Positions 29,732 through 50,671 of a stretch of 64,000 nucleotides of DNA are shown here, in pieces. Under the pieces are notes generated by a model. The model searched no databases, was not told the origin of the DNA, and saw nothing but the letters and a program-made list of their open reading frames with translations. Position 1 is the stretch's first letter. Each line of letters opens with the position of its first letter. The position numbers were made by a program, and so were the translations under genes. The stretch spans positions 248,001 to 312,000 of the forward strand of contig NZ_PVUF01000001.1 in NCBI RefSeq assembly GCF_003003215.1. Direction: 5' to 3'. The DNA is from Tritonibacter scottomollicae. GTDB taxonomy: Bacteria > Pseudomonadota > Alphaproteobacteria > Rhodobacterales > Rhodobacteraceae.

Positions 29732-29774
29732 GTGGGGGGTCCTCCTGATCGGGGGCAAAATCTGCGGTCTTTTG

Positions 29775-33586: not shown

Positions 33587-34237
33587 ATGGCCGGGCAGAC
33601 GGAGACGCTGATTGCAGCGATCCTCGAGGATATCGACGCCGGGCGGCTGGCGCCGGGACAGGAGATTGACGAGGCCGCGTTGGCCAGCCGCCATGGCGTG
33701 TCGCGCACGCCGATCCGCGAGGCCTATATCCAGCTCGAAGCCTTCGGCCTGATCCGCCGCCTGCCGCGCAAGGGGGCGGTGTTGTTCAAGCCGACGCTGG
33801 AGGAGTTCCTCGCCATCCAAGAGGTGCATGCGCAGCTGGAAGGGCAGGCGGCAGGGCTGGCGGCACGGCGCATTTCGCCTGAGTTGCGCGCCCGGCTGGA
33901 GGCGGCTGTGACCGCCTGCGAGGCGCATGCGGCGGCACAGGGCGACAGCGATCCCGACGGCTATTACCAGCTGAACCTTGTGTTTCACGAAACCGTGGCG
34001 CTGGGCGCGGCCAATCCGTTTCTGGTCGAAATGATCAAGACCAATGCCCGCAAGCTGATGGCCTATTATCGCGCCCGTTACCGCTATCCCGGCGCCATTG
34101 CGCAATCGGCGCAAGAGCACCGCGAGATCGCCACGCTGATCCTGTCGCATGACCGCGATCGTGCCGAGGCCGCGATGCAGGCGCATGTACTGTTTGATCA
34201 GGTCACGGTGATGGATCTGCTGGCAGCCCTGGGTTAG
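33587..34237 (+). CDS. GntR family transcriptional regulator, FCD subfamily
   Basis: 216 residues. A winged helix at residues about 8-68 (LASRHGVSRTPIREAYIQLE, then LIRRLPRKGAVL) precedes an FCD ligand domain with metal-site residues including Asp/His in NLVFHETVAL and EHREI. FCD regulators usually bind small carboxylates as effectors. ATG 33587 follows AGGAGACGGG. It converges on and overlaps by 4 bases the amidotransferase gene. A GTATAC palindrome in the P450/amidotransferase promoter is a candidate operator. Confidence 0.88.
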   Translation: MAGQTETLIAAILEDIDAGRLAPGQEIDEAALASRHGVSRTPIREAYIQLEAFGLIRRLPRKGAVLFKPTLEEFLAIQEVHAQLEGQAAGLAARRISPELRARLEAAVTACEAHAAAQGDSDPDGYYQLNLVFHETVALGAANPFLVEMIKTNARKLMAYYRARYRYPGAIAQSAQEHREIATLILSHDRDRAEAAMQAHVLFDQVTVMDLLAALG

Positions 34238-34944
34238 CCGGCGCGCGCAGCTTCGAAAAATCGTGCGATGGCTTCTGCCAGAGCCGGCTGGTCGACCTTC
34301 TGCTTCAAGCTCTCCTGTGCGCGGGCGTAGACCTCGGGACCCATGTCCTGCCGTAGCTCCTCGGTCAGCGCGCTTATAAACGCATGCGTCATTTCCGGGT
34401 GGTGTTGGGTGGTGGCGATATGGCGCCCCAGCGTAAAGCCGGTGCTGTGCCCGTCGCGGGTCATCAACGGATCGGCCCCTTTCGGCAATTCGTGCACATA
34501 TTCCACGTGAGAGCCGTAGATTGAGACCACATCCGGCAGCTCAGCTGCCCACTCCGGGCGCGCGATCAGGTGATTCTCCGTGCGCCCGTGCACCCAACCG
34601 CCGGGCAGATCGTCGACGCGTCCGCCCAGGGCGAGGGCAATCGCCTGATGGCCAAAACAGGCTCCGAACAGCGGAATCTTGCGATCATGGATCTGCCGGA
34701 TCAGCGCCAGCAGCCGGTCCACCCAGGGCGCGCCAGAGCGGGTGGAGGCGGGGCTGCCAGTGATCATCACTCCGTCATAACGGCTTATATCTTCGGGAAA
34801 AATATCGTCCTTCACCGCGAAGACATCACAGGACCAGTGGGGCCGCGCCATCTGCACCAGTGCGGTGAACTTTGCGCCATCCTTCGGGTGCCTGTGTGCA
34901 AAGGCGCTGTCGTCCGTATTGGTCATCAAAATCGCAATGCGCAT
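34234..34944 (-). CDS. Class-I glutamine amidotransferase-like protein
   Basis: 236 residues. The nucleophile elbow is GACFGHQ with Cys96, and HHPE supplies His182 and Glu184 of the catalytic triad. The fold is the GuaA-like stand-alone GATase1 type. In polyamine pathways a gamma-glutamyl hydrolase (PuuD/SpuA) removes glutamate, and this enzyme could take that role, though PuuD itself belongs to the C26 peptidase group. ATG 34944 has GGAAG eight bases upstream. It is divergent from the P450 with a 73-base shared promoter. Confidence 0.85.
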   Translation of the reverse strand: MRIAILMTNTDDSAFAHRHPKDGAKFTALVQMARPHWSCDVFAVKDDIFPEDISRYDGVMITGSPASTRSGAPWVDRLLALIRQIHDRKIPLFGACFGHQAIALALGGRVDDLPGGWVHGRTENHLIARPEWAAELPDVVSIYGSHVEYVHELPKGADPLMTRDGHSTGFTLGRHIATTQHHPEMTHAFISALTEELRQDMGPEVYARAQESLKQKVDQPALAEAIARFFEAARAG

Positions 34945-34978
34945 GTTCAGGCTTCCCATATGCATATTTACAGTGCTT

Positions 34979-34992
34979 AATAGTATACATGT
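34979..34992. promoter_or_regulatory. Possible GntR operator between amidotransferase and P450 genes
   Basis: AATAGTATACATGT is centred on the palindrome GTATAC (34983-34988) in the 73-base divergent promoter. FCD-type GntR proteins often recognise GTATAC-centred sites, and a GntR gene lies next to the unit. Evidence is one short site only. Confidence 0.35.
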
Positions 34993-35017
34993 GAAGCAAG
35001 CCAAAGGAAGCCCCGCC

Positions 35018-36277
35018 ATGACGATCTGGACCCCGACCGATGATGGATACGCGGACCTGTCGAGCCATGACGCCTTTGCCAGTGGCGCGCCGCATAACAC
35101 CTTTGCCCGGCTCCGGCGTGATGACCCGCTGCATTGGACAGACTACCCGGACGGGCAGAATTTCTGGTCGGTGACCCGTTACGATGACATCACCAAGATG
35201 AACAAGAACACGGAGGTGTTTTCCTCGGCGCGTGGCATCCGCATGGAGGACCAGACCTACGAGGAATACCTCGCGCGGCGCACCTTTCAGGAAACCGACC
35301 CGCCTGACCATTCACAGGTGCGGATGAAACTGCTGAAGGCGTTCTCCAAGACCACCATGGCGCAATATGAGGACGACATCCGCGCCCTCTGCGCCGAAAT
35401 TTTGGACGCGGCGCTGGCAAAGGGCACCTTTGACGCCACCAAGGAGATCGCCCGGCAATTGCCGATGCGGATGCTGGGGCGCGTGGTGGGGCTGCCGGAT
35501 GCGGATCTGCCGTGGCTGGTGGAAAAGGGTGATGCGTTGATCGCCAATACCGACCCGGATTTCACCTCGCATGTGCTGGACAAGATGGACACGGATGAAT
35601 TCCGCATGATGCCCTTCAACTCTCCGGCGGGGGCGGAATTATATATCTACGCCAAGGAGTTGATGGAGGCCAAGGATAAGGCGGGCGACACCTCGGGCGT
35701 GCTCAACATGATCCTGCAGCCGGCCCGCGACGGATCTGTCATTACCGAGACTGAGTTTCGCAATTTCTTCTGCCTGCTGGTGGCTGCGGGCAATGACACG
35801 ACGCGTTACTCCATCGCAGCTGGCATTCAGGCGATGTGTCATCAGCCGGAGCTTCTGGCGCAGATGCAGGCGGGTGGCGAGGTCTGGGAGACGGCGGCGG
35901 ACGAGATCATCCGTTGGGCGACGCCCGCGCTCTACTTCCGCCGCACGGCGACGCAGGATGTGGAGATGCACGGCAAGACCATCCGCGAGGGCGACAAGCT
36001 TCTGTATTGGTTCATCTCGGCCAACCGCGATGACAGCTATTTTGACGACCCGTTCCGGGTAAACCTGATGCGCAAACCCAACCGGCACCTGTCCTTTGGC
36101 CAGTTCGGCCCGCATGTCTGCCTTGGCATGTGGCTGGCGCGGCTGGAGGTCACGGTGTTGTTTCAGGAGCTTGCCAAGCGGATCAAGTCCATTGAGTCAG
36201 CCGGTGCGCATAAATTCCTGCGCTCGAATTTCGTCGGCGGCATCAAGGAATTGCCGGTTCGGGTGGAAGCCGCGTAG
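35018..36277 (+). CDS. Cytochrome P450
   Basis: 419 residues, soluble bacterial class. The I-helix oxygen-binding motif is AGNDTT (257-262), the K-helix ExxR is EIIR (296-299), and the haem ligand is Cys368 in FGQFGPHVCLG, which has one residue more than the common FGxGxHxCxG loop. It needs external redox partners, and none is encoded nearby. AAAGGAAG precedes ATG 35018. It is followed after 166 bases by a glutamine-synthetase-like gene, suggesting that it oxidises the substrate of that pathway or an intermediate of it. CYP family not assignable without a search. Confidence 0.92.
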   Translation: MTIWTPTDDGYADLSSHDAFASGAPHNTFARLRRDDPLHWTDYPDGQNFWSVTRYDDITKMNKNTEVFSSARGIRMEDQTYEEYLARRTFQETDPPDHSQVRMKLLKAFSKTTMAQYEDDIRALCAEILDAALAKGTFDATKEIARQLPMRMLGRVVGLPDADLPWLVEKGDALIANTDPDFTSHVLDKMDTDEFRMMPFNSPAGAELYIYAKELMEAKDKAGDTSGVLNMILQPARDGSVITETEFRNFFCLLVAAGNDTTRYSIAAGIQAMCHQPELLAQMQAGGEVWETAADEIIRWATPALYFRRTATQDVEMHGKTIREGDKLLYWFISANRDDSYFDDPFRVNLMRKPNRHLSFGQFGPHVCLGMWLARLEVTVLFQELAKRIKSIESAGAHKFLRSNFVGGIKELPVRVEAA

Positions 36278-36443
36278 GCTCAACAGAAGACCCGTTCGGG
36301 CGGTCGCCCGGACAGCGCCCGACCTCCCCCACGGGAGGGCGCTTCGCACCCACCCGAGGTCGGCAACTGCCCTCTGTTGGGACCCAATCTGGGCCAAGAC
36401 GCACGCCAAAGATGCGCAGGCCGCCAACAGGAAAGGAAGCCAA
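36278..36443. repeat. GC-rich palindromic stretch between P450 and GS genes
   Basis: GGGCGGTCGCCCGGACAGCG and CCTCCCCCACGGGAGG form local palindromes. Read on the minus strand, the order (CCTCC hairpin, then GCTGTCCGGGCGACCGCCC) resembles the plus-strand stretches at 2995-3050 and 5460-5516. It may be a dispersed intergenic element. There is no T-run. Confidence 0.4.
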
Positions 36444-37733
36444 ATGAAAACCCGCCTGCGTGCGCTTTTCTGCGACCATCTCAGTATCATGCGCGGAAAA
36501 TACCTGCCGCATTCCAAGATCGGAGACGATGACACCCGGTTCTGCCGCTCCGTCTTTGGCACGCACTACGACCGCGATCTGCTGGATGCGCCGGGATCAA
36601 TGGTGAAACAGGGCCTGCCGGATATGGAGCTGCGCTGGCGCGGCGAGGAGATCCGCGACAGCTGGCATGCCTCGACCAAGATCGTGCTGGGCGATCTGTA
36701 TGACGATGCGGGCGAGCTGCTCACGCTGTGTCCGCGGGGCGCGTTGAAGCGCGCGGTGGCGGGCTGGCAGGCTAGGGGGCTCACTCCCAAGGTGGGGATC
36801 GAGCTGGAAGCCTTTGCCCTGCAGCCGGACGACTATGGCCGGTTGGTGCCCTATGATGCGCCGGGTGGCGTGGTCTATGGCACCGGGCCTTTTGCGGACC
36901 CGTTGCGGTTCAACGACCGCATCTGGGCGATGGCGGACGAGATGGGCTTCTCGCTCGATATGATCACCGCCGAGTTTGACAGCCCGCAGTTCGAATATAC
37001 GCTGACCTTTGACGATGCGGTGAAGGCAGTGGATGACATCGTGTTGTTCCGTCTGATGGCGCGGGAGATTGCGCTGGAATATGGCATCGTGCTGACCTTC
37101 ATGCCCAAGCCGGTGGCGCAGGCCGGTGGCTCCGGCATGCATGTGAACCTGTCATTCACAGATGAGGCTGGCGGCAATGCGCTGTCCTCCGGGCCGCGTG
37201 GTGGGCCGGAGCACATGAATGATCTGGCGCGCGGCTGCCTTGCCGGGTTTCTGCATCACCACAAGGCCTTGGCGGGTCTGATCGCACCCACCGCCAACAG
37301 CTACATGCGCTTGCAACCCGGCAGCCTGTCGGGCTTCTGGCAGAACTGGGGCGGCGATCATCGCAACGTCACCACGCGGATCAGCTCCGAAGGCGGCGCC
37401 AAGGCGCGGCTGGAGCACCGGATGGCGGATGCCTCGTCGAACCCCTACACCACGGTGGCCGCGCTGTTGCAGGCGGCGCTTCTTGGGGTGGAGCAGGGCT
37501 ATGCGCTGGGGCCGATGGAGACTGGCGACGGGTTTGATCGCACGGATACCCGCGAAAGCACCGCAATGACGTTGAAGGGCGCGGTGGCGGACCTGGAAAA
37601 GGACGTCGCGCTGACACAGGCCGTGGGGCCTGATCTGATCGCCAACCACGTCTACATGAAACAGAAAGAGGTCCGCAAAACCCGCGATCTGGAAGGGGAT
37701 GCGCTGCGCGATTTCTACGTGCATTTCGTCTGA
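36444..37733 (+). CDS. Glutamine synthetase family protein (PuuA-like gamma-glutamylamide synthetase)
   Basis: 429 residues. The catalytic domain of glutamine synthetase is clear: GIELEAFAL (Glu120, Glu122 metal ligands), GSGMHVNLSF, and LEHRMADASSNPYTTVAAL near the C-terminus. FCDHLSIMRGKYLP begins the short beta-grasp domain directly, without the usual helical N-terminus. Members of this branch (PuuA, SpuI, GMAS) ligate glutamate to amines rather than ammonia. The PuuC-like dehydrogenase, aminotransferase and amidotransferase in the same region support an amine substrate. AAAGGAAG precedes the ATG, and a terminator follows at 37770. Confidence 0.85.
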   Translation: MKTRLRALFCDHLSIMRGKYLPHSKIGDDDTRFCRSVFGTHYDRDLLDAPGSMVKQGLPDMELRWRGEEIRDSWHASTKIVLGDLYDDAGELLTLCPRGALKRAVAGWQARGLTPKVGIELEAFALQPDDYGRLVPYDAPGGVVYGTGPFADPLRFNDRIWAMADEMGFSLDMITAEFDSPQFEYTLTFDDAVKAVDDIVLFRLMAREIALEYGIVLTFMPKPVAQAGGSGMHVNLSFTDEAGGNALSSGPRGGPEHMNDLARGCLAGFLHHHKALAGLIAPTANSYMRLQPGSLSGFWQNWGGDHRNVTTRISSEGGAKARLEHRMADASSNPYTTVAALLQAALLGVEQGYALGPMETGDGFDRTDTRESTAMTLKGAVADLEKDVALTQAVGPDLIANHVYMKQKEVRKTRDLEGDALRDFYVHFV

Positions 37734-37769
37734 CGGATTGTCTGAACTGAGACACAGATAGTGGCTCTT

Positions 37770-37803
37770 GCGCAGGCCCGCTGTGGCCTGCGCTTGCTTT
37801 TTC
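37770..37803 (+). terminator. Rho-independent terminator after the GS-like gene
   Basis: GCGCAGGCC, loop CGCTGT, GGCCTGCGC is a perfect 9-bp stem followed by TTGCTTTTTC. Confidence 0.92.
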
Positions 37804-37858
37804 TCGCGCGGCAGCGCCAGAGTGTCGGCACAATCAACTCAGGCGAAATGAGCAGAAC

Positions 37859-38605
37859 ATGTCTGATACAGAAGTGACGTCCACAGCGGTGACGTCAGAT
37901 GCAGCCCCGCTGGTGACGCAGGAGGTCGCGGCGACCTGTCTTGGCGTGAAGGTGCCGCAGTCACCCTTCTTGACCGAGACGCGGATCGAACGGATCAACG
38001 CGGCGCGCTATGAGGGCCAGGAGATTGCCGGAGCCCTGCATGTGGTGCGTGAAGACGACCGGGTGCTGGAGGTCGGCGCGGGCCTTGGCGTGGTGGGTGC
38101 GGTGATCGCGATGAATGCCAGGCCCGAGAAAGTGCTGTCCTTCGAGGCCAATCCGGAGCTGGTGCCGGTGATCACGGCCCTGCACGAGATGAACGAGCTG
38201 GGCGGTCGGGTGGAGCTGCGCAATCAGGTGCTTTTTGCCGGGGCGGACCGCCCAGAGACGATGGAATTCCATCTGCGCAACAGCTTTCTCGGCTCCTCAC
38301 TGCTGAACGAGGGGGGGCGGCCCTCGCGGGTGGTCGAGATCCCGACCGTGGATATGGCCGAGGTGGTGGCAGAGCTACAACCGACCGTGCTGGTGATGGA
38401 TATCGAGGGCGGCGAGTTGGCGCTGCTGGAGGCGATGGACCTCAGCCCGTTCCGGGCCATTGTGATCGAATTCCACCCGGAGGCCTATGAGGTTGCGGGC
38501 ATGCGACGCTGCAAGTCCATCCTGCGGGACGCCGGGTTCCTAAAGGTCGACGAGATCTCCACCCGCACCGTTTGGACCTGCACTCGCGAAGGCGCGCCGT
38601 CCTGA
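37859..38605 (+). CDS. FkbM family methyltransferase
   Basis: 248 residues. VLEVGAGLGVVGAVIAM is the SAM-binding glycine loop, VLSFEANPEL the acidic end of strand 2, and VMDIEGGELALLEAMD the FkbM signature block. FkbM-type enzymes methylate hydroxyl groups of sugars or polyketides; the acceptor here is unknown. It lies after a terminator and before convergent hairpins, so it is probably its own transcription unit. No glycan genes are near. Confidence 0.85.
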   Translation: MSDTEVTSTAVTSDAAPLVTQEVAATCLGVKVPQSPFLTETRIERINAARYEGQEIAGALHVVREDDRVLEVGAGLGVVGAVIAMNARPEKVLSFEANPELVPVITALHEMNELGGRVELRNQVLFAGADRPETMEFHLRNSFLGSSLLNEGGRPSRVVEIPTVDMAEVVAELQPTVLVMDIEGGELALLEAMDLSPFRAIVIEFHPEAYEVAGMRRCKSILRDAGFLKVDEISTRTVWTCTREGAPS

Positions 38606-38649
38606 GCCGCATACGCAACCGCGCCGCGCCAGCGGCGCCACCGAAAGAC

Positions 38650-38723
38650 GCGCGCCCGAAGCCAAAGGCTTCGGGCGCGCCATGGTATCTGGTGGCCTCC
38701 GTACCCCGATGGGGCACGGAGGC
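38650..38723. terminator. Two strong hairpins between convergent genes
   Basis: GCGCGCCCGAAGCC, loop AAA, GGCTTCGGGCGCGC (38650-38680) is a perfect 14-bp stem. GCCTCCGT.CCCC, loop GAT, GGGG.ACGGAGGC (38695-38723) is a second stem with one mismatch. Neither has a T-run. They sit between the FkbM gene (+) and the aminotransferase gene (-) and probably block read-through both ways. Confidence 0.7.
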
Positions 38724-38743
38724 AGTGGCGCCCGGCCGCCATG

Positions 38744-40111
38744 TCAGCTCACCGCCGCAAAGCCTGCATCAAGCGCCGAGAGAATCTGGCTCACATCCGC
38801 TTCGGTCAGCACCAGAGGCGGCGACAGGATGATGTTGGGGCCCGAGACCCGCACCATGGCGCCGTTCTGATAGGCAACTTCCTGAACCGTATTGATCGTC
38901 TTCTTGTCGATGGCAGCCTTGGTGGCGCGATCACTGACAAGTTCCAGCGCATTCATCAGCCCATGACCGCCGCGCACGTCGCCGATCAGGCCATAGCGTT
39001 CTTGCAGTGCCGCCAGCCCCTCATGTACCTGTGCACCGCGCGCCGCCGCATTTGTGGGCACATCGAGCCGTTTGGTCTCCGCCAGACAGGCCAGCGCCGC
39101 CGCCGCCCCAACCGGGTGGCCGGAATAGGTGTAGCCATGGCCGATGGCGGCCTTGCCGGTCTCATCCTTTTCAAACACCTCGACCAGACGTTCGGAGATC
39201 ATCAGCGCGCCAAAGGGGAAATAGCCGTTGGTAATCGCCTTTGCTGTGCACATCATGTCCGGCTGCACGCCCCAGTGTCGCGATCCGGTCCAGGAACCGC
39301 AGCGGCCAAAGGCGGTGATCACCTCGTCGGCGATCAGCAGGATGCCATGCTTGCGGCATATCTCGGCCACTCCGGGCATGAAACTTTCATGTGGCGGGAT
39401 CACGCCCCCGGCGCCCAGGATCGGCTCCATGATGAAGGCCGCAATCGTGCCGGCGCCCTGAAAGGCGATCTCGTCCTCCAGCGCGGCCAGACAGAGCTGC
39501 GCCAGCCGCTCCGGGTCGGTTTCGTTGAACGGGTTGCGATAGGTATAGGGCGCCGGGATGTGGTGGCAGCCGGCCAGCAGGGGTTCATAAGCGGTGCGGA
39601 AATTGGCGTTGCCGTTGACCGATGCACCGCCAAAATGGGTGCCGTGATAGCCCTTCTTCAGGCTCAGGTATTTCACCCGGGACGGCTCCCCGCGGACCTT
39701 GTGATATTGCCGCGCCAGCCGCAGGGCGGTTTCGACCGAATCGGATCCGCCGGAGGTGAAGAACGCGCGGCTGAGACCGTCGGGGGCGAAAAAGTCTCGC
39801 AGCTCCTCGGCCAGCTGGATGACCTGATCGTTGGTGGTGCCGCGAAAGATCGAATAATAGGGCAGCACATCCAGCTGTGCGGCGATCGCGTCCTTCACTG
39901 GCTGGCAGGAAAACCCGAGGTTCACGTTCCACAGGCCGCCCACAGCGTCGACCACCTCATGCCCGTCCACATCCTTGATGCGCACGCCAGAGGCGCCGGT
40001 CACGATGGTCGGCGGATTGGCGAGGCTGTCGCCGGGATGGGCCATCGGATGCCACAAGCTTCGGGCATTGTGTTCTTTCAGGAAATTGGCGTCGGGCTGA
40101 TGTGCGGTCAT
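38744..40111 (-). CDS. Class-III PLP aminotransferase (omega-amine/amino acid type)
   Basis: 455 residues, fold-type I. FFTSGGSDSVETALRLAR binds the cofactor phosphate, LIADEVITAFGR holds Asp262, which contacts the PLP ring nitrogen, and TAKAITNGYFPFGA holds Lys291, the Schiff-base lysine. Relatives transaminate omega-amines such as putrescine, taurine or beta-alanine with pyruvate or 2-oxoglutarate (SpuC, Tpa, OAPT). The product would be an aldehyde, matching the PuuC-like dehydrogenase at 44240. ATG 40111 follows AAGGAG; the upstream 22 residues of the longer frame are not used. It runs in the same direction as the IclR gene, 29 bases away. Confidence 0.9.
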   Translation of the reverse strand: MTAHQPDANFLKEHNARSLWHPMAHPGDSLANPPTIVTGASGVRIKDVDGHEVVDAVGGLWNVNLGFSCQPVKDAIAAQLDVLPYYSIFRGTTNDQVIQLAEELRDFFAPDGLSRAFFTSGGSDSVETALRLARQYHKVRGEPSRVKYLSLKKGYHGTHFGGASVNGNANFRTAYEPLLAGCHHIPAPYTYRNPFNETDPERLAQLCLAALEDEIAFQGAGTIAAFIMEPILGAGGVIPPHESFMPGVAEICRKHGILLIADEVITAFGRCGSWTGSRHWGVQPDMMCTAKAITNGYFPFGALMISERLVEVFEKDETGKAAIGHGYTYSGHPVGAAAALACLAETKRLDVPTNAAARGAQVHEGLAALQERYGLIGDVRGGHGLMNALELVSDRATKAAIDKKTINTVQEVAYQNGAMVRVSGPNIILSPPLVLTEADVSQILSALDAGFAAVS

Positions 40112-40140
40112 GGGGCGGACTCCTTGTCGCGGCGCGGCCC

Positions 40141-40989
40141 TCAGGCCGCGATGTCGGTGGGAAACTCGGGCGGGCAAGCGCCGCCGATACGTTCGGTAAG
40201 GGCCAGACCGGCCAGACGCAGGGCACGGGGAATGGCGGTTTTTTGATCGTCGCTCATGCGGGAGGTCGGCGCGGCCACCGCCAGCGCCCCCAGCACCACT
40301 TGGTCCGGGCCAAAAATCGGCACCGCGTGGGAATGCACCTCCGCCTCGTAGCCGCCGATGGATTGCGCCAGCCCGCTGCGCTGGACCGCTGCCAGTTCGG
40401 CGCGGATGGCGACCGGGTCGGTTTGGGTCTGGGCGGTGCGCGCCTCCAGGGGTTGCGCCAGCACGGCGTCGACAAAGCCCGGGTCGGCAAAGGCCAGCAC
40501 CGCAAGGCCGGAGGCGGTGCCGTGGAAGGTCAGCACCTCGGCGTCCTCCATCATCACCTTGGTGGCATTGCGCGGCGCATAGGCGTGGCTGAGGGATGCG
40601 AGCTGGTCCCCCTGCAACAGCGACAGGTGGGTGGTCTCGCCGGTTTCCTCGGACAATTCCCGCAGCACCCGGCGCGACGCCGACAGGATCGGCACGCTGG
40701 CCTCGCGCAGTGCTGCCAGCCGCAACACCTGCGGGCCAAGGCGGTAGGCGCGGTCGCCATCGACCTGTTCGACGAATCCCGTCGCCTGCAATTCGCTCAT
40801 CAGCCGATAGACCGTCGCCTTGTTCATGCCCGACAGGCGCGTGAGGTCGCTCAGCCCGATTACCAGCCGCCCGTGGTTGAAATGGGTCAGCAAATTCAGT
40901 GCTTTGGAGACGGTTCCCATGGGTGATCGTAATCCTGATCTGCCAGATTTCTCAGCGCCTCTGACCCCGAGTGGAGGGCGCTCCTTCAT
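40141..40989 (-). CDS. IclR family transcriptional regulator
   Basis: 282 residues from ATG 40989; ATG 40920 (MGTVSKALNLL) would give 259 residues, closer to the family size, but neither start has a good ribosome-binding site. The winged helix spans TVSKALNLLTHF to YRLMSELQATGF, and the C-terminal effector domain includes HSLSLLQGD-like THLSLLQGDQ and GYEAEVHSHAVPIF. It is divergent from the TctC gene and upstream of the aminotransferase, so it probably controls both arms of the amine cluster. Two palindromes lie in the shared promoter. Confidence 0.9.
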   Translation of the reverse strand: MKERPPLGVRGAEKSGRSGLRSPMGTVSKALNLLTHFNHGRLVIGLSDLTRLSGMNKATVYRLMSELQATGFVEQVDGDRAYRLGPQVLRLAALREASVPILSASRRVLRELSEETGETTHLSLLQGDQLASLSHAYAPRNATKVMMEDAEVLTFHGTASGLAVLAFADPGFVDAVLAQPLEARTAQTQTDPVAIRAELAAVQRSGLAQSIGGYEAEVHSHAVPIFGPDQVVLGALAVAAPTSRMSDDQKTAIPRALRLAGLALTERIGGACPPEFPTDIAA

Positions 40990-40994
40990 TTTTG

Positions 40995-41021
40995 TTGACA
41001 GATTGACCCCATGGCTGTCAA
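40995..41021. promoter_or_regulatory. Inverted repeat 1 in the IclR/TctC promoter
   Basis: TTGACAG (40995-41001) and CTGTCAA (41015-41021) are perfect 7-bp arms 13 bases apart, six bases before the IclR ATG. TTGACA also resembles a -35 hexamer. It may be an autoregulation site. Confidence 0.5.
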
Positions 41022-41037
41022 TCTAAATTCAAACCAT

Positions 41038-41056
41038 CGGTTCGAATAATGAACCG
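41038..41056. promoter_or_regulatory. Inverted repeat 2 in the IclR/TctC promoter (likely IclR operator)
   Basis: CGGTTC GAATAAT GAACCG is a perfect 6-bp palindrome with a 7-base spacer. It resembles the GTTCGATAATCGCAC-type sites known for PobR/PcaU of the IclR family. It lies about 90 bases before the TctC start. Confidence 0.6.
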
Positions 41057-41148
41057 ACAGCGGCGACTACAAGCGAAGATCAACCGAGCGGCGGACAACG
41101 TCGCCATTTGACCAACGGCAACTTGAATGGCGAACAGGGAGACAGCCA

Positions 41149-42093
41149 ATGACCGTGACATCTGTACTCAAGGGATGTGTGGCCGCAGCGGGCCTTGCAC
41201 TGACAGCGGGAGCCGCTCTGGCGGAGTATCCGGAGAAACCCGTGAACTTCATCGTGCCCTGGCCGCCCGGCGATCTTGAGGACGTGCTGACCCGGATGAT
41301 CGCCGAGGATTTCCAGGAGGAATACGGCGTCGCTGCCGCGGTGGTGAACAAGCCCGGCGGCGGTGGTGGGCCTTTCCCCGGTGCCATCGAGGTCGCCAAT
41401 GCGCCGGCTGACGGCTATACCGTGGGATCCTTCGTGATCGGGGTGCCGGTGATGGGCCACCAGATCGACATTCCGCCGCTGACGCCGGAGAAATTCGACC
41501 CGCTTGGCATTTTCCTGACCTATCCCTTCGTCATCGCGACCTCGGGCGATGCGCCCTATTCCTCGATGGAGGAGCTGGCAGCGCATGCGCAGGACAATGA
41601 CGTGGTGCTGGGCCATTTCGGCGATGTGCTGACGCCGACGCAGGTCACCAAGGCCTATGCCAAATCCGCCGGGTTCGAGTGGGGCGCGGATGCTGCCTTT
41701 GACGCGCTGGACTGCAATACGCTGGCGTCGGGCGATGCGGATGTGATCAACACCACGCTGCAACTGATCCTGCCTTGTCTGGACGATGTGAAGGTGCTGG
41801 TCTCCATCACTGACAGCCGCATCCCGCTGGTGCCTGACGCGCCGACGATTGGCGAGCTGAACCCGGACCTGGACATCGCGCTTTGGAATGGCCTGTTCGT
41901 GACCAAGGACACACCGCAGGAGGTGCGCGACAAGATCGTCGCCGTGGCGCAGAAGACCGTGATGAGCGACCGCGCGCAGGCGGTGGCGGCGGAAACTGGC
42001 GCGCTGGTCTATTGGCAGGATGCGGACACCAGCACCGCCCGCGTGGCCAATGACATCGAGACGATGGCGCGGATCAGCACCGCGCTGGAGTAA
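41149..42093 (+). CDS. Tripartite tricarboxylate transporter substrate-binding protein (TctC/Bug)
   Basis: 314 residues. The signal peptide is residues 1-25 (cleavage after GAALA). The periplasmic Bug fold starts EYPEKPVNFIVPWPPGD, and VVNKPGGGG and APADGYTVG are the conserved ligand loops. Bug proteins bind carboxylates (citrate, tartrate, aspartate, nicotinate); the ligand here is unknown. It is first in tctC-B-A and precedes the aldehyde dehydrogenase gene. The promoter faces the IclR gene. Confidence 0.9.
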   Translation: MTVTSVLKGCVAAAGLALTAGAALAEYPEKPVNFIVPWPPGDLEDVLTRMIAEDFQEEYGVAAAVVNKPGGGGGPFPGAIEVANAPADGYTVGSFVIGVPVMGHQIDIPPLTPEKFDPLGIFLTYPFVIATSGDAPYSSMEELAAHAQDNDVVLGHFGDVLTPTQVTKAYAKSAGFEWGADAAFDALDCNTLASGDADVINTTLQLILPCLDDVKVLVSITDSRIPLVPDAPTIGELNPDLDIALWNGLFVTKDTPQEVRDKIVAVAQKTVMSDRAQAVAAETGALVYWQDADTSTARVANDIETMARISTALE

Positions 42094-42197
42094 CCTCCCC
42101 GAGCCTTCCGCCGGTGCCATCCCGCATGGTCCGGCGGATTTTTCGGCCTCATCTTCTGCAGACCTCTGCCCTCACACCTTCCCAGCCAGAGACCCCA

Positions 42198-42728
42198 ATG
42201 CAAAGCGAACGTGAACGCAGATTTGCCGGCCCGCGCCGGGGACAGCTCTTGTTTGTGCTGTCGTTCCTGACCCTGTCGGTGCTGCTGTTGTCCCAGATCA
42301 CTCAGCAGACGGCTTGGGTGAACAAGACCGGCCTTTTTGCCCAGCCCCGCTTCTGGCCCGCGGTGGGTGTCGGCGGCATGGTCTTTTGCACCGCGCTGCA
42401 CCTGTGGCGGCTGCCGTTCCGCCGTATCGAGCGCGCCGACCTGCGCGAGGCGCTGCGCTGGGTGGCCGCGTTGGAATACGCGCTGTGGTTCATGGTCTAC
42501 GTAATGCTGGTGCCGCTGATCGGCTACCTTCCGATGACGCTGATCTTCGTGCCGCTGCTGGCCTGGCGGATGGGGTATCGCAGCCCGCAGATGATGGCGA
42601 TCAGCGCCGGGTTCGCGGTGTTTATCGTGCTGTTCTTCAAGGGTGTTCTGGCGGTGCGTATCCCCGGGGCGGTGCTCTATGACTATCTGCCGGATGCCTT
42701 GCGCAGCTTTGCCATCCTCTATCTCTGA
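42198..42728 (+). CDS. Tripartite tricarboxylate transporter small subunit TctB
   Basis: 176 residues with four predicted membrane helices (for example LLFVLSFLTLSVLLLS and YALWFMVYVMLVPLIGYLPM). The ATG at 42198 (MQSERERRFAG) gives the expected cytoplasmic N-terminus; the frame extends upstream to 42114. It sits between tctC and tctA with a 27-base gap to tctA. This subunit is poorly conserved, so the call rests on size, topology and position. Confidence 0.85.
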   Translation: MQSERERRFAGPRRGQLLFVLSFLTLSVLLLSQITQQTAWVNKTGLFAQPRFWPAVGVGGMVFCTALHLWRLPFRRIERADLREALRWVAALEYALWFMVYVMLVPLIGYLPMTLIFVPLLAWRMGYRSPQMMAISAGFAVFIVLFFKGVLAVRIPGAVLYDYLPDALRSFAILYL

Positions 42729-42755
42729 GACTTTTTCCAAGGAAGACGCGCGCGC

Positions 42756-44375
42756 ATGGACCTGATCCTTTCTGCCCTCGACATCCTGATGCGCTGGGAC
42801 GTGGCGCTTGCACTGCTGGCGGGGTCGGTCGGCGGCGTGCTGATCGGCGCCATCCCCGGGGTCGGCCCGGCGGTTGCCATCGCGATCCTGCTGCCCGCGA
42901 CCTTCTCGCTTGATCCCATCGTCGGGCTGACGGTGCTGTTGGGCATCTATGGCTCGTCCATGTATGGCGGTGCGATCCCGGCGATCCTGATCAACACCCC
43001 CGGCACCGCCGTCAATGCGCTGACAACATATGACGGCTACCCTATGACCGCCCGGGGCGAACCGCGCCGCGCCCTCAGTCTGGCCTATTCCGCCAGCTTC
43101 TTTGGTGGCGTGTTCTCGGTGATCTGCCTGATCCTGTTTGCGCCCGTGCTGGCGAAAATCGCGCCGCTGTTTGGCGCGCGCGAGATCTTCCTCGCCGCGC
43201 TGTTGGGCTTGCTGCTGGTGGTGGTGGCGCACCGGGGACAGGCGCTGATTGCGGGGGCGCTGGCCTGTCTCGGGATCTTTCTCAACACCATCGGCATGGA
43301 GCCGGTAAAATACACCCAGCGCTACACATTCGGCACGGATGTGCTGGGCTCCGGCATCAACCTGATTGTGGTGGTGCTGGGGTTGTTTGCGATCTCGCAG
43401 GCCTTTGTTCTGCTGACCGATGAAGACGAGAAAATCCGCCTCACCAAACTGCGCGGGGGCATGTTCCAGGGTCTGCGCGAGCTGGCGCGCCACCCGCGCG
43501 TGGCGACGGTTTCGGCGGGCTTTGGCGTTGTCATGGGCATGATCCCCGGTGTGGGCGAATTCACCGCGCAGTTCATGTCCTACACCTACGCGCAGAAATC
43601 CTCGAAACGGCCGCAGGATTTCGGCAATGGCTCCTCCGAAGGGCTGATCGCCGCCGAGACCGCCAACAACGCCGTACCCGCCGCCGCCATGGTGCCGCTT
43701 CTGGCGCTTGGCATCCCGGGCGAGGCGCTGACGGCGATGATGCTGTCGGTGTTCTACGTGCACAACGTGGTGCCCGGGCCGGGGTTGTTTCAGAACCAGA
43801 TGGATTTTGTTGTAGCCCTTTATCTGGCGCTGCTGATCCTCAACGTGCTGGTGCTGGTCTTCCTGCTTGGGGCGACAAAGTCGCTCATTCAGGTGGTGCG
43901 CATACCCAACCGTTTTCTCGGCGTGGGCATCCTGACCCTCAGTTTCGTCGGGGTCTATTCCCTGCGAAACTCTGCCACCGACTGTTTCATGGCGGCGGGG
44001 TTTGGCCTGTTTGGCTTCGTGCTGAAGCGCCTGCAGCTGCCTGCGGTGCCGATCATCCTCGGTATGGTGCTGGGCGGCATTATGGAGGTGAAGCTGCGCG
44101 CCGCCATGGCGCGGGTGAAGACGCCCTTTGATTTCATTGATCGCCCGGTGGCGTTCATCCTGTTTTCCATCATCATTATCGTGCTTGCGACGCATGTCCT
44201 GCGCATCCGCAGGGAAGCGCGCGAGCTGAAGGAGGCCGAATGGCAGACCAAGACCGCATCAACACGCTTCGGCGCACTGCTATTGCGCCGCAGAACCTCT
44301 TTCTTGAAGGAGCATGGACGGAAGGTGAGGGCGCGCCATGCGAAGCTGCTTCGCCGATTGACGGATCTGTTCTGA
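42756..44375 (+). CDS. Tripartite tricarboxylate transporter large permease TctA
   Basis: 539 residues, about twelve membrane helices. GVLIGAIPGVGPAVAIAILLP, IYGSSMYGGAIPAILINTPG and GFGVVMGMIPGVGEFTAQF include the TctA signature loops (GAIPGVGP, GGAIPAILINTPG). It forms the sodium- or proton-driven channel with TctB. Typical members end near residue 500; the last 45 residues here are read from sequence inside the next gene in another frame, giving a 136-base overlap. Either this overlap is genuine or an earlier stop was lost. Confidence 0.92.
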   Translation: MDLILSALDILMRWDVALALLAGSVGGVLIGAIPGVGPAVAIAILLPATFSLDPIVGLTVLLGIYGSSMYGGAIPAILINTPGTAVNALTTYDGYPMTARGEPRRALSLAYSASFFGGVFSVICLILFAPVLAKIAPLFGAREIFLAALLGLLLVVVAHRGQALIAGALACLGIFLNTIGMEPVKYTQRYTFGTDVLGSGINLIVVVLGLFAISQAFVLLTDEDEKIRLTKLRGGMFQGLRELARHPRVATVSAGFGVVMGMIPGVGEFTAQFMSYTYAQKSSKRPQDFGNGSSEGLIAAETANNAVPAAAMVPLLALGIPGEALTAMMLSVFYVHNVVPGPGLFQNQMDFVVALYLALLILNVLVLVFLLGATKSLIQVVRIPNRFLGVGILTLSFVGVYSLRNSATDCFMAAGFGLFGFVLKRLQLPAVPIILGMVLGGIMEVKLRAAMARVKTPFDFIDRPVAFILFSIIIIVLATHVLRIRREARELKEAEWQTKTASTRFGALLLRRRTSFLKEHGRKVRARHAKLLRRLTDLF

Positions 44376-45724
44376 CCACATTGGCCACGGCCACGGCAGC
44401 CGATGTGGATCGCGCCGTGGCCTCCGGGCGGCGGGCGTTCGAGGATGGTCGCTGGTCAGGGCTGCCTCCAGCGGCGCGCAAGAAGGTGCTGCACCGGATC
44501 GCCGACAGGATCGAGGCCGAGGCGCTGGCGCTCACCGTTCTGGGCGTGCGCGACAATGGCACCGAATTCAACATGGCACTGAAGGCCGAGGCCGGATCGG
44601 CGGCGGGAACCTTCCGCTATTACGCAGAAGCGCTGGACAAGGTGGCAGGCGAAGTGGCCCCCACTGCAGCGGATGTGCTGGGGCTGGTACAGCGCGCGCC
44701 CGTCGGTGTGGTGGGCGCGATTGTGCCATGGAACTTCCCGCTGATGATCGGCGCATGGAAACTGGCGCCCGCGCTCGCGATGGGCAATTCGGTGGTGTTG
44801 AAACCGGCCGAGACCGCGTCGCTGTCGCTGCTCCGGCTGGCCGAGATCTGTTCGGAGTGCGGCCTGCCCGATGGGGTGCTGAACGTGGTGACCGGCCCCG
44901 GTGCGGTGACCGGCGCGGCGCTGTCCGAGCATATGGATGTGGATGTGCTGGTCTTCACCGGCTCTGGTGCCACGGGGCGACGCTTGCTGGAGGCCTCGGC
45001 GCGTTCGAACCTGAAACGCTGCTATCTGGAGCTGGGGGGCAAATCGCCCAATATCGTCTTTGCCGATGCCAAGGATCTCGATCACGCGGCCAAGGTCTCG
45101 GCCATGGGGATCTTTCGCAACTCCGGCCAGGTCTGTGTGGCGGGCTCGCGCCTGCTGGTCGAGGCGTCGATCCACGATGAGTTTGTGGCGCGGATTGTCG
45201 AACATGCCGAGGCGCTGAAGGTTGGCGATCCGCTGGATCTGGGCAGTCAGATCGGGGCGGTGAATTCCGAAACCCAGCTGGCAGCGAACCTCGATCACGT
45301 GGCGCGCGCCGTGACCGAGGGCGGCGATGTGCGCTGTGGCGGCGGGCGTATCCTGGCGGAGACCGGCGGCACCTATATGGCGCCAACTGTGGTGACAGGC
45401 GTGCGCGAACAGTCGAGCCTGTTCCAACGCGAGGTTTTTGGGCCGGTTCTGTCGGTGACGGGTTTTGACGGCGAAGAGGAGGCGCTGCGGCTGGCCAATG
45501 CCACCGACTATGGGCTCGCCGCCGGGGTCTGGACCCAGGACCTGTCCCGGGCGCATCGCTGTGTTGCGGGCATTCGGGCGGGCGTGGTGCATGTGAACAC
45601 CTATGGCGGGGCCGACAATACGGTGCCCTTGGGCGGGGTTGGTCAGTCCGGCAATGGGCACGACAAATCCCTGCATGCGCTGGACAAATACGTCGATTTG
45701 AAAACCGCTTGGATACAGCTGTGA
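44240..45724 (+). CDS. Aldehyde dehydrogenase, PuuC-like (gamma-glutamyl-gamma-aminobutyraldehyde type)
   Basis: 494 residues. Glu264 in LELGGKSPN and Cys299 in FRNSGQVCVAG are the catalytic pair, and IVPWNFPLMI and FTGSGATGR bind NAD. The C-terminal KSLHALDKYVDLKTAWIQL closely resembles the end of E. coli PuuC, which oxidises gamma-glutamyl-gamma-aminobutyraldehyde. AAGGAGG lies five bases before ATG 44240, deep inside the 3' end of tctA. It probably oxidises the aldehyde made by the aminotransferase or P450 of this region. Confidence 0.9.
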   Translation: MADQDRINTLRRTAIAPQNLFLEGAWTEGEGAPCEAASPIDGSVLTTLATATAADVDRAVASGRRAFEDGRWSGLPPAARKKVLHRIADRIEAEALALTVLGVRDNGTEFNMALKAEAGSAAGTFRYYAEALDKVAGEVAPTAADVLGLVQRAPVGVVGAIVPWNFPLMIGAWKLAPALAMGNSVVLKPAETASLSLLRLAEICSECGLPDGVLNVVTGPGAVTGAALSEHMDVDVLVFTGSGATGRRLLEASARSNLKRCYLELGGKSPNIVFADAKDLDHAAKVSAMGIFRNSGQVCVAGSRLLVEASIHDEFVARIVEHAEALKVGDPLDLGSQIGAVNSETQLAANLDHVARAVTEGGDVRCGGGRILAETGGTYMAPTVVTGVREQSSLFQREVFGPVLSVTGFDGEEEALRLANATDYGLAAGVWTQDLSRAHRCVAGIRAGVVHVNTYGGADNTVPLGGVGQSGNGHDKSLHALDKYVDLKTAWIQL

Positions 45725-45760: not shown

Positions 45761-45818
45761 CCTCCGGCGGAGGTATTTGAAAAAAGATGAAGACGGGCGC
45801 GGGAGGCGCCCGAGGGGA
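45761..45818. repeat. Small GC palindromes between ALDH and UPF0261 genes
   Basis: CCTCCGGCGGAGG (45761-45773) is a near-perfect palindrome followed by TATTTGAAAAAAGATGAAG, a run I recall as common in Rhodobacterales intergenic DNA. GGGCGC GGGAG GCGCCC lies at 45796-45812 just before the ribosome-binding site. The first may act as a weak terminator. Confidence 0.45.
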
Positions 45819-45825
45819 GGATGAG

Positions 45826-47058
45826 ATGAGCGGTGAAAAGACGATTCTTGTGGCCGGGACCTGGGACACCAAGGATGATGAGCTGTCCTATCTGTCGGAG
45901 GTGATCCGGGGGCAGGGCGGTCAAGTGCTCAGCATGGATGTGAGTGTTTTGGGCGACCCCAAGGCGCCCACGGATGTGTCAAAACATGAAGTGGCGGAGG
46001 CGGCGGGCAGCTCCATTCAGGTCGCCATTGACAGCGGGAATGAGAACACCGCGATGCAGATCATGGGGGCGGGCGCGGCCGGGCTGGCGTTCGATCTGTG
46101 GCGCGCGGGGCGCATCCATGGTGTGATCGTGCTGGGCGGTACCATGGGCACCGATCTGGCGCTGGACCTATGTGGTGCGCTGCCGTTGGGGGTGCCGAAA
46201 TATGTGGTCTCGACGGTGGCGTTTTCACCGCTTTTGCCGCCGGAGCGCATTCCGGCCGATGTGCAGATGATCCTCTGGGCCGGGGGGCTTTATGGGCTCA
46301 ACGATATTTGCAAGGCCTCGCTCAGTCAGGCGGCGGGTGCGGTGCTGGGCGCGGCGCGCGCGGTGGAGACGCCGCGGTTCGAGCGGCCGATGGTGGGGAT
46401 GACGTCCTTTGGCAAGACGGTGCTGAACTACATGGTGACGCTGAAGCCGGCGCTGGAAGCGCGCGGCTTTGATGTGGCGGTGTTTCATGCCACCGGCATG
46501 GGCGGGCGGGCCTTCGAGAGCCTCGCGGGTGCGGGCGCCTTTGCTGCGGTGATGGATTTTGCACCGCAGGAAGTGAGCAATCATCTGTTTGGCGGTCTGT
46601 CGGCGGGCGAGGGGCGGATGACCCATGCGGGCAAGGCCAGCGTTCCGCAGATGGTGGCGCCGGGCTGCTATGATCTGGTGGATTTTGTCGGCTGGCAGGA
46701 GATGCCTGCTGCATTGCAGGGACGGGAGTGTCATGCGCACAACCGTTTGCTGACCGCCGCCATGCTGGAGGCGGGGGAGCGGCGCACGGTGGCGCGCGCG
46801 ATCTGTGAAAAGCTGGCAGGTGCGACGGGGCCGGTTGCGTTTTTCCTGCCCACCGGGGGCTGCAACGAATGGGACCGGGCTGGCGGAGAGTTGCATGATG
46901 CGGAGGGGCTTGCCGCATTCTGTGACGAGATGCGCCGCGCTGTGCCGGAGTCGGTCGAGTTGCAGGAGCTGCCCTGCCACATCAATGACAGGGACTTTTG
47001 CGAGGCGGTGCTGGCGCAGTTCGACGCCTGGTTGGCGGCTGGCATGATCTCTCGGTAA
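45826..47058 (+). CDS. UPF0261 (Tm-1-like ATP-binding) family protein
   Basis: 410 residues. ILVAGTWDTKDDELSYL, LGGTMGTDLALDL and VGMTSFGKTVLNYM are family blocks, and FLPTGGCNEWD lies near the C-terminus. Plant Tm-1, which inhibits tobamovirus replication, carries this domain; bacterial members bind ATP, and their reaction is unknown. They usually occur fused to or beside a TIM-barrel (PEP-hydrolase-like) partner, which is missing here. ATG 45826 has GGGGAGG upstream. It may belong to the same transcript as tctCBA-ALDH. Confidence 0.85.
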   Translation: MSGEKTILVAGTWDTKDDELSYLSEVIRGQGGQVLSMDVSVLGDPKAPTDVSKHEVAEAAGSSIQVAIDSGNENTAMQIMGAGAAGLAFDLWRAGRIHGVIVLGGTMGTDLALDLCGALPLGVPKYVVSTVAFSPLLPPERIPADVQMILWAGGLYGLNDICKASLSQAAGAVLGAARAVETPRFERPMVGMTSFGKTVLNYMVTLKPALEARGFDVAVFHATGMGGRAFESLAGAGAFAAVMDFAPQEVSNHLFGGLSAGEGRMTHAGKASVPQMVAPGCYDLVDFVGWQEMPAALQGRECHAHNRLLTAAMLEAGERRTVARAICEKLAGATGPVAFFLPTGGCNEWDRAGGELHDAEGLAAFCDEMRRAVPESVELQELPCHINDRDFCEAVLAQFDAWLAAGMISR

Positions 47059-47770: not shown

Positions 47771-48454
47771 TCAGGATCCGGTCGCGGCGGCGCGGATGTT
47801 GCGGATGTTGTCGCCATAGACCTGCGGCGTGTCGACGGAGCCGCCGCGGAACACCGCAGAGCCCGCCACCAGCACATCTGCGCCCGCCTCGGCCACCAGC
47901 GGTGCCGTGGTAGTGTCGACGCCCCCGTCGATCTCGATATGCACCGGGCGGTCGCCAATCATCTGACGCAGGGCGCGCACCTTGCTGGTCATATCGATGA
48001 ATTTCTGCCCGCCAAAGCCCGGGTTCACCGTCATCACGCAGATGAGGTCGGTGAGATCCAGCAGATGCGCCACTGCCTCGGCCGGGGTGCCGGGGTTAAG
48101 CGCCACGCCTGCCTTCATGCCGGCGCCGCGAATGGCTTGCAGGGTGCGGTGAATATGCGGGCCGGCCTCCACATGGGCGGTGAGCACATCTGCCCCTGCT
48201 TCGGCATAGGCATCGATATAGGGATCGACCGGCGCGATCATCAGGTGCACGTCCATCACGGTCTTCACATGCGGGCGGAACGCTTTCACCGCTGCCGGGC
48301 CAAAGGTGAGGTTGGGCACAAAATGCCCGTCCATCACATCCACATGTACCCAGTCGGCGCCCTGGGCCTCGATGGCTTGGATCTCCTGGCCGAAATTGGC
48401 GAAATCCGCCGACAGGATGGACGGGGCAATCTTGATGGAACGGTCAAAGGTCAT
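47771..48454 (-). CDS. rpe: Ribulose-phosphate 3-epimerase
   Basis: 227 residues, TIM barrel. It interconverts ribulose 5-phosphate and xylulose 5-phosphate in the pentose phosphate pathway. [31 protein letters not shown] (metal and catalytic Asp) and [12 protein letters not shown] with EIDGGV (second Asp) are diagnostic. ATG 48454 is used; the frame to 48610 is not. It is divergent from phnC across a 301-base region. Ribose phosphates are also the products of the C-P lyase pathway, a possible reason for the neighbourhood. Confidence 0.95.
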
Positions 48455-48755
48455 CGGCGGGGATCCTTGGCAGGGGGCAGGGAGGTGTGAGTCTGTAAAG
48501 ACTGCGCGCGGTATAGCGCCTAGGACCGCTGCTGCACAGGGTGAGTCTGCGCCCGCCCGAGCGGATGACCCAGAGCCCCGCGCCATCCACGCGATAGAAA
48601 TGCGGAGCAATGGGGCCAGATGCGCGGATGCGGCTGTCGCCGAGATCTTACCGCTGTGTCACGAAAATCGGGGCAAGTTACAAAAGTTTTATATCGATGA
48701 CACAAATGATTTGGTGATCATGCGTAGGCAGTCGCGGAACCAAAGGGGGCCGCAC
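48455..48755. promoter_or_regulatory. Divergent promoter region of rpe and phnC
   Basis: 301 bases. The part next to phnC is AT-rich (48661-48720, including AAAGTTTTATATCGATGA), as expected for a promoter. GTGTCA (48656-48661) and TGACAC (48698-48703) form a widely spaced inverted pair. I looked for two CTGTCAT-type repeats of a Pho box and did not find a convincing one. The PhnF 16-mer is not present here. Confidence 0.5.
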
Positions 48756-49574: not shown

Positions 49575-49642
49575 CCCTGACCCCTTTCATCATCCCGGGG
49601 CCAGTATGGTGTCGGGCCAACCCACAACCGGAGTATTCCACG

Positions 49643-50545: not shown

Positions 50546-50565
50546 GCGCGCGTTTCCATGTCTTC

Positions 50566-50603
50566 GCGGGGTTCGGATCACGATCCGGGCCCCGCATTTT
50601 TGG
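50566..50603 (+). terminator. Terminator-like hairpin between phnD and phnE1
   Basis: GCGGGGTTCGGATC, loop AC, GATCCGGGCCCCGC forms a 14-bp stem with two wobble pairs, followed by ATTTTTGG. Within an operon it probably acts as a partial terminator that raises PhnD relative to PhnE. Confidence 0.75.
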
Positions 50604-50671
50604 CCCCTGGTCTGCGGCTGTCCCGCAGCGGACCCGGAACAGGGCCACACCCATGACCCAGGACGAATTTA

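Follow-up and report, generated by a model that had tools for sequence, protein, structure and literature searches.

The Puu and Spu pathways combine gamma-glutamylation by a glutamine synthetase (GS)-like enzyme with a PuuC-like aldehyde dehydrogenase (ALDH), a class-III aminotransferase and an amidotransferase-type hydrolase, and in aniline-type pathways the oxygenase is a Rieske dioxygenase. Homoprotocatechuate (3,4-dihydroxyphenylacetate), broken down by the hpa meta-cleavage pathway, is usually reached from 4-hydroxyphenylacetate through HpaBC, HpaB being the usual 4-hydroxyphenylacetate hydroxylase. In the isopropylamine (Ipu) pathway of Pseudomonas KIE171 and of Arthrobacter aurescens TC1 plasmids, isopropylamine is ligated by a GS-type enzyme, the amide is oxidized by a cytochrome P450 and hydrolyzed by an amidotransferase, and L-alaninol is the product (in the parts of PMC6776027 that describe it; the label IpuC is found on another protein in an excerpt of PMC4103551). 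At 33587–45724 of a 64,000-nucleotide stretch from Tritonibacter scottomollicae (GCF_003003215.1, NZ_PVUF01000001.1, positions 248,001–312,000; the whole stretch is referred to as the window), a GS-like ligase, a P450 and a class-I glutamine amidotransferase (GATase)-like protein are encoded together with a class-III aminotransferase, an ALDH and a TctCBA importer. We see about an even chance that this cluster forms the upper part of a catabolic route in which an aromatic amine would be tagged with glutamate, oxidized by the P450 in one way or another, and passed on to ring cleavage.

As in the Ipu system, a GS-like ligase, a P450 putatively acting on a gamma-glutamyl amide and an amidotransferase-type hydrolase are encoded together, and aldehyde dehydrogenases are present, a likeness drawn from the description of Ipu in parts of the source and not from its sequences. 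In contrast to Ipu, where a ferredoxin and its reductase are encoded as well, none was found in the window cluster, which is linked instead to a TTT importer and an aminotransferase and whose relatives tie to an aromatic amino acid decarboxylase and to homoprotocatechuate cleavage. With NpaA1, AtdA1 and TdnQ (GoaS), the cluster shares a GS-like enzyme that has neither the catalytic Asp nor the flap Glu and acts ahead of oxidation and ring cleavage (PMC11335346, in the portion dealing with these enzymes), but the oxygenase of the window is a P450, and the amine would probably sit on a side chain and not on the ring. The four enzyme types of Puu and Spu are all represented, but the window proteins score far below the Puu equivalog cut-offs, and a P450 is present in addition. 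An earlier note, made from the sequence alone, had proposed a glutamylated-amine route with a P450 step, a reading that is partly supported here; its statement that the combination had not been described does not hold, as IpuC, P450, ferredoxin, ferredoxin reductase and GATase occur together in Ipu (same parts of PMC6776027). The principle of tagging an amine before P450 oxidation is thus already known for isopropylamine, and the apparent novelty lies in the class of substrate, which is likely to be an aromatic amine (tyramine or a dopamine-like compound). Among the matches listed in open-licence PMC, none mentioned this set of genes or a bacterial route for the catabolism of gamma-glutamyl-tyramine, a result that covers those matches and not everything in print.

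The GS-like ligase and the P450 are a conserved pair. Among 248 Rhodobacteraceae genomes, one per genus (cut-offs 1e-120 for GS and 1e-100 for P450, by which more distant copies are hidden), the GS was found in 45 and the P450 in 50 genera. Both were present in 43, less than 300 bp apart in 42 of them and 993 bp apart in the remaining one; the co-occurrence that the earlier note had put forward as a check was therefore seen in 43 of the 45 GS-positive genera. Seven P450-positive genera fell below the GS threshold, and five of these (G033, G045, G072, G123, and G146, with loci L132–L136; G-labels denote genomes and L-labels the loci compared) carry a more distant GS adjoining the P450. Altogether, a GS lies within 1 kb of 48 of the 50 P450 genes, the exceptions being G145 (no adjacent GS, but a GS-like match ∼24 kb away, next to TctC) and G166, where the P450 is located at a contig end. 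In 80 related loci compared by tblastn, the GATase and the P450 were each matched in 77; the P450 of L037 appeared only as short pieces, and L071, L072 and L075 lack genes where the compared stretch ends.

Similar cassettes were observed farther away, namely GS–GATase–P450 in Sagittula stellata and on three Novosphingobium plasmids, and P450–GS in Mesorhizobium, Streptomyces, and Embleya. The window P450 was matched at E ≤ 1e-60 in 17 plasmid records, 12 of which had a GS nearby; the other five (four Rhodococcus and one Nonomuraea) gave no GS match within 7 kb. Because of these cassettes and of the Ipu precedent, the kind of system is known and modular. The GS–GATase–P450 cassettes (L164, L167, L168, and L169), whose P450s are 36–39% identical to that of the window, have a TRAP importer and ring-hydroxylating dioxygenase genes (Sagittula stellata) or an aminotransferase (Novosphingobium) as neighbors and are putative additional P450 modules for glutamyl-amines.

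When aligned with the GlnA of the same genome, the ligase lacked the aspartate of DGSS, and GFEAP was replaced by GSLSG, by which the flap Glu is lost; the metal and glutamate motifs ExE, HxN, and RxExR were retained. By residue criteria, it is thus a protein of the GS fold but not an ammonia GS. Loss of Asp50 and of the flap Glu is given as the mark of organic amine ligases in the relevant part of a study on the naphthylamine ligase NpaA1 (PMC11335346), and the window ligase shows this pattern, with both residues lost and the metal and glutamate sites kept. It is read as a probable organic-amine ligase because these two residues of the ammonia enzyme are missing. The labels PuuA-like and PuuC-like used previously stand only as a likeness: the GS scored 161.7 bits with the GGputSyn (PuuA) equivalog (cut-off 650) and the ALDH 518 bits with that of PuuC (cut-off 850). 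The PuuD-type hydrolase models gave 25.1 bits (PF07722, barely above its cut-off of 20.5) and 15 bits (NF008471, cut-off 266) with the GATase. A putrescine or polyamine route (the earlier note already held putrescine itself to be unlikely) was rejected on the Puu model scores.

Both predicted structures, that of the P450 and that of the GS, were of middling confidence (mean pLDDT 78 and 76). A fold search with the GS model led no further than the GS family; methylamide and naphthylamine ligases were among the 50 best matches, but without a finer placing. The search with the P450 model returned CYP125, CYP163B3, and CYP124 as apparent relatives, without a clue to the substrate. The P450 contains the haem ligand Cys368, the I-helix motif AGNDTT and ExxR, and its nearest solved relative is CYP125MRCA. 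A charged stretch, residues 69–94, hardly varies among P450s that are as little as 50% identical overall to that of the window (L086, L119, and L133 among them), but the 39%-identical Streptomyces copy does not share this conservation. This stretch coincides with what we take to be the position of the B-C loop, substrate recognition site 1, a region that usually varies with the substrate in P450s. The P450s that share it may therefore act on the same substrate class, and the conserved, charged Arg75, Glu77, and Arg87 would suit a glutamyl arm. In the GATase, Cys96, His182, and Glu184 are conserved in at least 97% of 88 aligned sequences, and its best match in the PDB is gamma-glutamyl peptidase 1.

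What points to an aromatic substrate is the company that the P450 keeps. The ring-cleavage gene hpaD (counted with the VOC-type model) was present in 43 of 50 P450-positive but only 39 of 198 P450-negative genera; G087, in which the GS but not the P450 was found, lacks a VOC-type HpaD and was counted as negative, although its LigB-type HpaD scored 448 bits against a cut-off of 316. A gene closest to DOPA and tyrosine decarboxylases occurred in 45 of the 49 P450-positive genomes tested, that is, in 39 of 42 with and 6 of 7 without hpaD; in P450-negative genomes, it occurred in 31 of 38 with and 15 of 60 without hpaD. The counts for this decarboxylase and for hpaB cover 80 of the 82 hpaD-positive genomes (G033 and G119, 74% and 78% complete, were left out). 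The 60 controls are not a random draw, but the low-numbered labels from G001 to G093 without hpaD, P450, and GS, among which G008, G019, G021, and G022 (82, 91, 79, and 85% complete, respectively) were skipped. The genes are also linked: within 20 kb of each other were P450 and hpaD in 8 of 43, P450 and decarboxylase in 9 of 45, and decarboxylase and hpaD in 29 of 70 genomes, whereas about 0.4, 0.45, and 0.7 cases, respectively, are expected from random placement in a 4-Mb genome. In 14 genera, the P450 lies within 20 kb of hpaD and/or the decarboxylase. The earlier note was silent on this link, by which an aromatic amine is indicated as the substrate.

The window genome itself carries, on contig C9, hpaR on one strand and hpaF, hpaE, hpaD, the decarboxylase gene, hpaG, hpaH, and hpaI as one run on the other; HpaD scored 416.8 bits with TIGR02295 (cut-off 321.4), and the surrounding HpaF, E, G, H, and I were identified by tblastn. 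This operon is the probable lower pathway. Locus L153 combines GS, P450, GATase, TctABC, IclR, aminotransferase, HpaR/F/E/D, and the decarboxylase in 20 kb, and the arrangement of P450 and hpa or decarboxylase genes varies among L104, L108, L134, L136, and L153, as well as L123 and L125 from other families. Of the single proteins scanned from linked loci, HpaD, HpaH, and HpaR were above the curated cut-offs, and HpaI, HpaF, and HpaG were below. More compact still are L120–L122 from another alphaproteobacterial family, where one same-strand run encodes an HpaE-like ALDH, a LigB-type dioxygenase, an HpaG-like FAH protein, ADC, the decarboxylase, P450, GS, ferredoxin, and ferredoxin reductase; L119 has the same run minus the decarboxylase. 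The decarboxylase of L120 gave 673 bits to the DOPA decarboxylase 7xin, and an amino acid permease and a MarR regulator adjoin the run in L119 and L120. The gene order of L120–L122 nearly spells a route from an aromatic amino acid via amine and glutamyl amide to the P450 and ring cleavage.

All genes that had been named for the window cluster were found in place and with uninterrupted reading frames, in the order listed here (Pfam assignments were all above the gathering scores; "loci" refers to tblastn matches among the 80 related loci):

33587..34237, + strand: GntR/FCD-family regulator, first core gene (PF00392, 58 bits; PF07729, 94 bits; 70/80 loci)
34234..34944, − strand: class-I GATase-like protein, probable gamma-glutamyl amide hydrolase (PF00117, 64.5 bits)
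35018..36277, + strand: cytochrome P450 with CYP125/CYP124-like fold, putatively oxidizing the gamma-glutamyl amide (PF00067)
36444..37733, + strand: GS-like ligase, probable glutamyl organic amide synthetase (PF00120, 243 bits)
37859..38605, + strand: FkbM-family methyltransferase, peripheral and poorly conserved (TIGR01444, 51.5 bits, cut-off 37.7; 18/80 loci)
38744..40111, − strand: class-III omega-aminotransferase (NF005683, 744 bits, cut-off 575; best PDB match omega transaminase 5lh9)
40141..40989, − strand: IclR-family regulator (PF01614, PF09339)
41149..42093, + strand: TctC substrate-binding protein (PF03401; best PDB match BugD)
42198..42728, + strand: TctB small membrane subunit (PF07331)
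42756..44375, + strand: TctA large permease subunit (PF01970, 428 bits; 58/80 loci)
44240..45724, + strand: aldehyde dehydrogenase, PuuC/KauB-like (PF00171, 529 bits; KauB second-best PDB match)
45787..47058, + strand: Tm-1-like/UPF0261 protein, conserved with the Tct/ALDH block (PF06792, PF23189; NF002676, 645 bits, cut-off 556; 49/80 loci)

The gaps between GATase and P450 and between P450 and GS amount to 73 and 166 bp, respectively. The GS is 97% identical to that of Epibacterium sp. Ofav1-8 and 96% to that of T. mobilis, and the aminotransferase was matched above 70% identity in 56 of the 80 loci (six further matches at 27–29% were not counted).

The proposed route would begin with uptake of an aromatic L-amino acid or of the corresponding amine, probably via TctCBA, and the decarboxylase-like enzyme encoded in the hpa operon of contig C9 would make the amine. 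The GS-like ligase would join this amine, most likely tyramine, to the gamma-carboxyl group of glutamate at the expense of ATP, and the P450 would oxidize the resulting gamma-glutamyl amide. Glutamate would then be taken off by the amidotransferase-like enzyme, the aminotransferase followed by the ALDH would convert the amine to homoprotocatechuate, and the products of hpaDEFGHI would open and degrade it; we infer all substrates, the cargo of the importer and the order of these steps, as well as any role of the Tm-1-like protein. For the P450, hydroxylation of the ring to gamma-glutamyl-dopamine is the likeliest reaction, although we place it somewhat short of an even chance. Hydroxylation at C-alpha, by which glutamine and an aldehyde would be released, and hydroxylation of the side chain to an amino alcohol, by analogy with Ipu, both appear unlikely.

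HpaB is absent from the window genome and from 67 other hpaD-positive genomes, being found in only 12 of 80; starting from tyrosine or tyramine would therefore require a different hydroxylation, and if the P450 hydroxylated the ring, this would account for how those 68 genomes cope. Extending this to about one in five Rhodobacteraceae genera and to other alphaproteobacterial families, a dedicated P450 clade would recognize the glutamyl arm with its B-C loop and hydroxylate the ring of gamma-glutamyl-tyramine in place of HpaBC, and in L119–L122 the ring would be opened with the arm still attached; in this wide form, the proposal is tentative and rather doubtful. Should the aromatic-amine route be true, common marine bacteria would apply to natural aromatic amines the strategy of a glutamate handle plus P450 that is known from isopropylamine, and the route would offer an entry to homoprotocatechuate for genomes that mostly lack HpaB. 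It would also supply testable functions for genes that carry no annotation beyond "glutamine synthetase family protein" and "cytochrome P450", and P450s tuned to gamma-glutamyl amides could serve as biocatalysts.

Several observations weigh against this route or parts of it. When the P450 was examined as a replacement of HpaB, the frequency of HpaB turned out to be no lower with the P450 (6 of 42) than without it (6 of 38). A flavin monooxygenase (PRK08132-type) is encoded in 73 of the 80 hpaD-positive genomes, including that of the window, so that the ring could be hydroxylated without the P450; the monooxygenase is too common to tell whether it complements the P450. In L119 and L120, the HpaE-, HpaD-, and HpaG-like proteins remained below the curated cut-offs, the dioxygenases far below (137 and 131 vs. 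316 bits), and therefore the substrate of ring cleavage there may not be homoprotocatechuate itself. The GATase, TctC, and an ortholog of the window aminotransferase were not matched in L119–L122, so that the chemistry following the P450 must differ in these loci. The plasmid relatives L086 and L088 have ring-cleavage-type genes but no match for the decarboxylase. Related sets on a Novosphingobium and a Streptomyces plasmid are without it. In five of the nine cases with P450 and decarboxylase nearby (G009, G041, G052, G070, and G096), the spacing is nearly equal, which may reflect a single event, and because genera share ancestry, the Fisher values for co-occurrence and the linkage estimate overstate independence. 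No ferredoxin was matched in the window, and among the cluster's entries in the list of open reading frames there was no reductase gene.

Furthermore, hpaD is absent from 7 of the 50 P450-positive genera. The close relative Tritonibacter horizontis O3.65, for which only 2 of 7 homoprotocatechuate genes are reported in part of PMC5064897, has the P450–GS cluster, yet the 19.5 kb around its decarboxylase (L176) match only HpaR of the hpa set, which suggests that this enzyme by itself serves the P450 route. At L178 and L181, two loci whose genomes lack hpaD, the decarboxylase is encoded together with HpaI and the flavin monooxygenase. Adjoining them is maleylacetoacetate isomerase in L178 and fumarylacetoacetase in L181, each above its cut-off, and the GntR and GATase genes of the cluster come next in L181. 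Maleylacetoacetate isomerase and fumarylacetoacetase are enzymes of homogentisate breakdown. Support is accordingly better for the aromatic-amine part of the route than for its exact exit.

The enzymes of the window would also fit the breakdown of a short aliphatic or alicyclic amine in the manner of Ipu, with alkyl hydroxylation by the P450, an amino alcohol freed by the GATase and finished by aminotransferase and ALDH, and with the hpa link due to shared residence in aromatic-degrading genomes. The enzyme set is the same as that of Ipu (as given in part of PMC6776027), and the distant cassettes of Sagittula stellata, Novosphingobium, and Mesorhizobium have other neighbors. However, the DOPA-decarboxylase-like gene shares a run with P450 and GS in L120–L122, 14 genera have the P450 near hpaD or the decarboxylase, and residues 69–94 are nearly invariant between these lineages; we regard this explanation as unlikely, albeit worth keeping in view. 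The cluster might, alternatively, be two unrelated units that happen to adjoin, a GntR–GATase–P450–GS cassette and an IclR/Tct/aminotransferase/ALDH/Tm-1 block for a carboxylate. The blocks are indeed apart in several genomes (by more than 500 kb in G009 and G187, on different contigs in others), TctC being sometimes distant or on another contig in the 43 P450-positive genera that have it, and TctC occurs without P450 or GS in 29 genera. Nevertheless, TctC is present in 43 of 50 P450-positive but only 31 of 198 other genera, in line with the importer having been assigned to the cluster, and the blocks are found together in several different gene orders, which renders mere adjacency distinctly improbable.

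The remaining explanations retain an aromatic amine and change the P450 reaction. N-dealkylation, a possible step already suggested in the earlier note, would start from a ring that is dihydroxylated from the outset (DOPA or dopamine): the P450 would hydroxylate the carbon beside the amide nitrogen, yielding glutamine and 3,4-dihydroxyphenylacetaldehyde, the ALDH would form homoprotocatechuate, and the GATase would act as a glutaminase or proofreader. The decarboxylase being closest to DOPA decarboxylase and the rarity of HpaB agree with this, as do L119–L122, which would need neither a GATase nor a window-type aminotransferase. It leaves, however, the aminotransferase without a step despite its retention with the cluster, and the dioxygenases of L119 and L120 do not closely resemble HpaD, so that we rate it as rather improbable. 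Hydroxylation at the benzylic position of the side chain, in turn, would yield an octopamine-type amino alcohol after hydrolysis, and a kinase together with a class-III phospho-lyase dependent on pyridoxal phosphate (PLP) would convert it to the aldehyde, a conversion for which such enzyme pairs are known. An amino alcohol is also what the Ipu P450 yields (again from part of PMC6776027), and the Tct/ALDH block repeatedly contains an APH-type kinase along with a class-III enzyme resembling PRK06148, but the pair was not seen in the window cluster, and among L119–L122 only L120 shows it; this variant is quite improbable.

The recurring PRK06148-like class-III PLP enzyme and APH-type kinase, located beside ALDH and Tm-1-like genes at L130:17977-19257, L141:13570-15784, L153:7411-8364, and L120:12360-15461, look like an amino-alcohol kinase/phospho-lyase pair. 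The full-length PRK06148 protein beside the run of L120 scored 1354 bits (cut-off 1128).

A [2Fe-2S] ferredoxin gene follows the GS by less than 400 bp in 49 of the 80 related loci, all 49 that have it. In the Tritonibacter group (L001–L006; window 37733–37859), the FkbM-type gene takes this place, and L020 has both. A 60-residue ferredoxin query gave one match in the window genome, 41% identical, on contig C3. The FkbM methyltransferase (37859–38605, between GS and aminotransferase) and the Tm-1-like gene (45787–47058, after the ALDH) had both been omitted from the previous description; the former was set aside as a pathway member, its match being confined to 18 of the 80 loci, and the latter is kept beside the Tct/ALDH block across lineages, including L124, L132, and L153. 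Just upstream of the cluster, at 31560–33368, an AtuA-family protein (PF07287 plus an AtuA_ferredoxin domain) is encoded, which was matched in only 10 of the 80 loci. The left flank (26951–31243) contains phenylacetyl-CoA (paa) genes, and paaA was a neighbor in no more than a minority of the related loci, 20 of 80. Phosphonate uptake genes and a PhnM-type diphosphatase gene (60864–62006) lie on the right flank (48300–62006).

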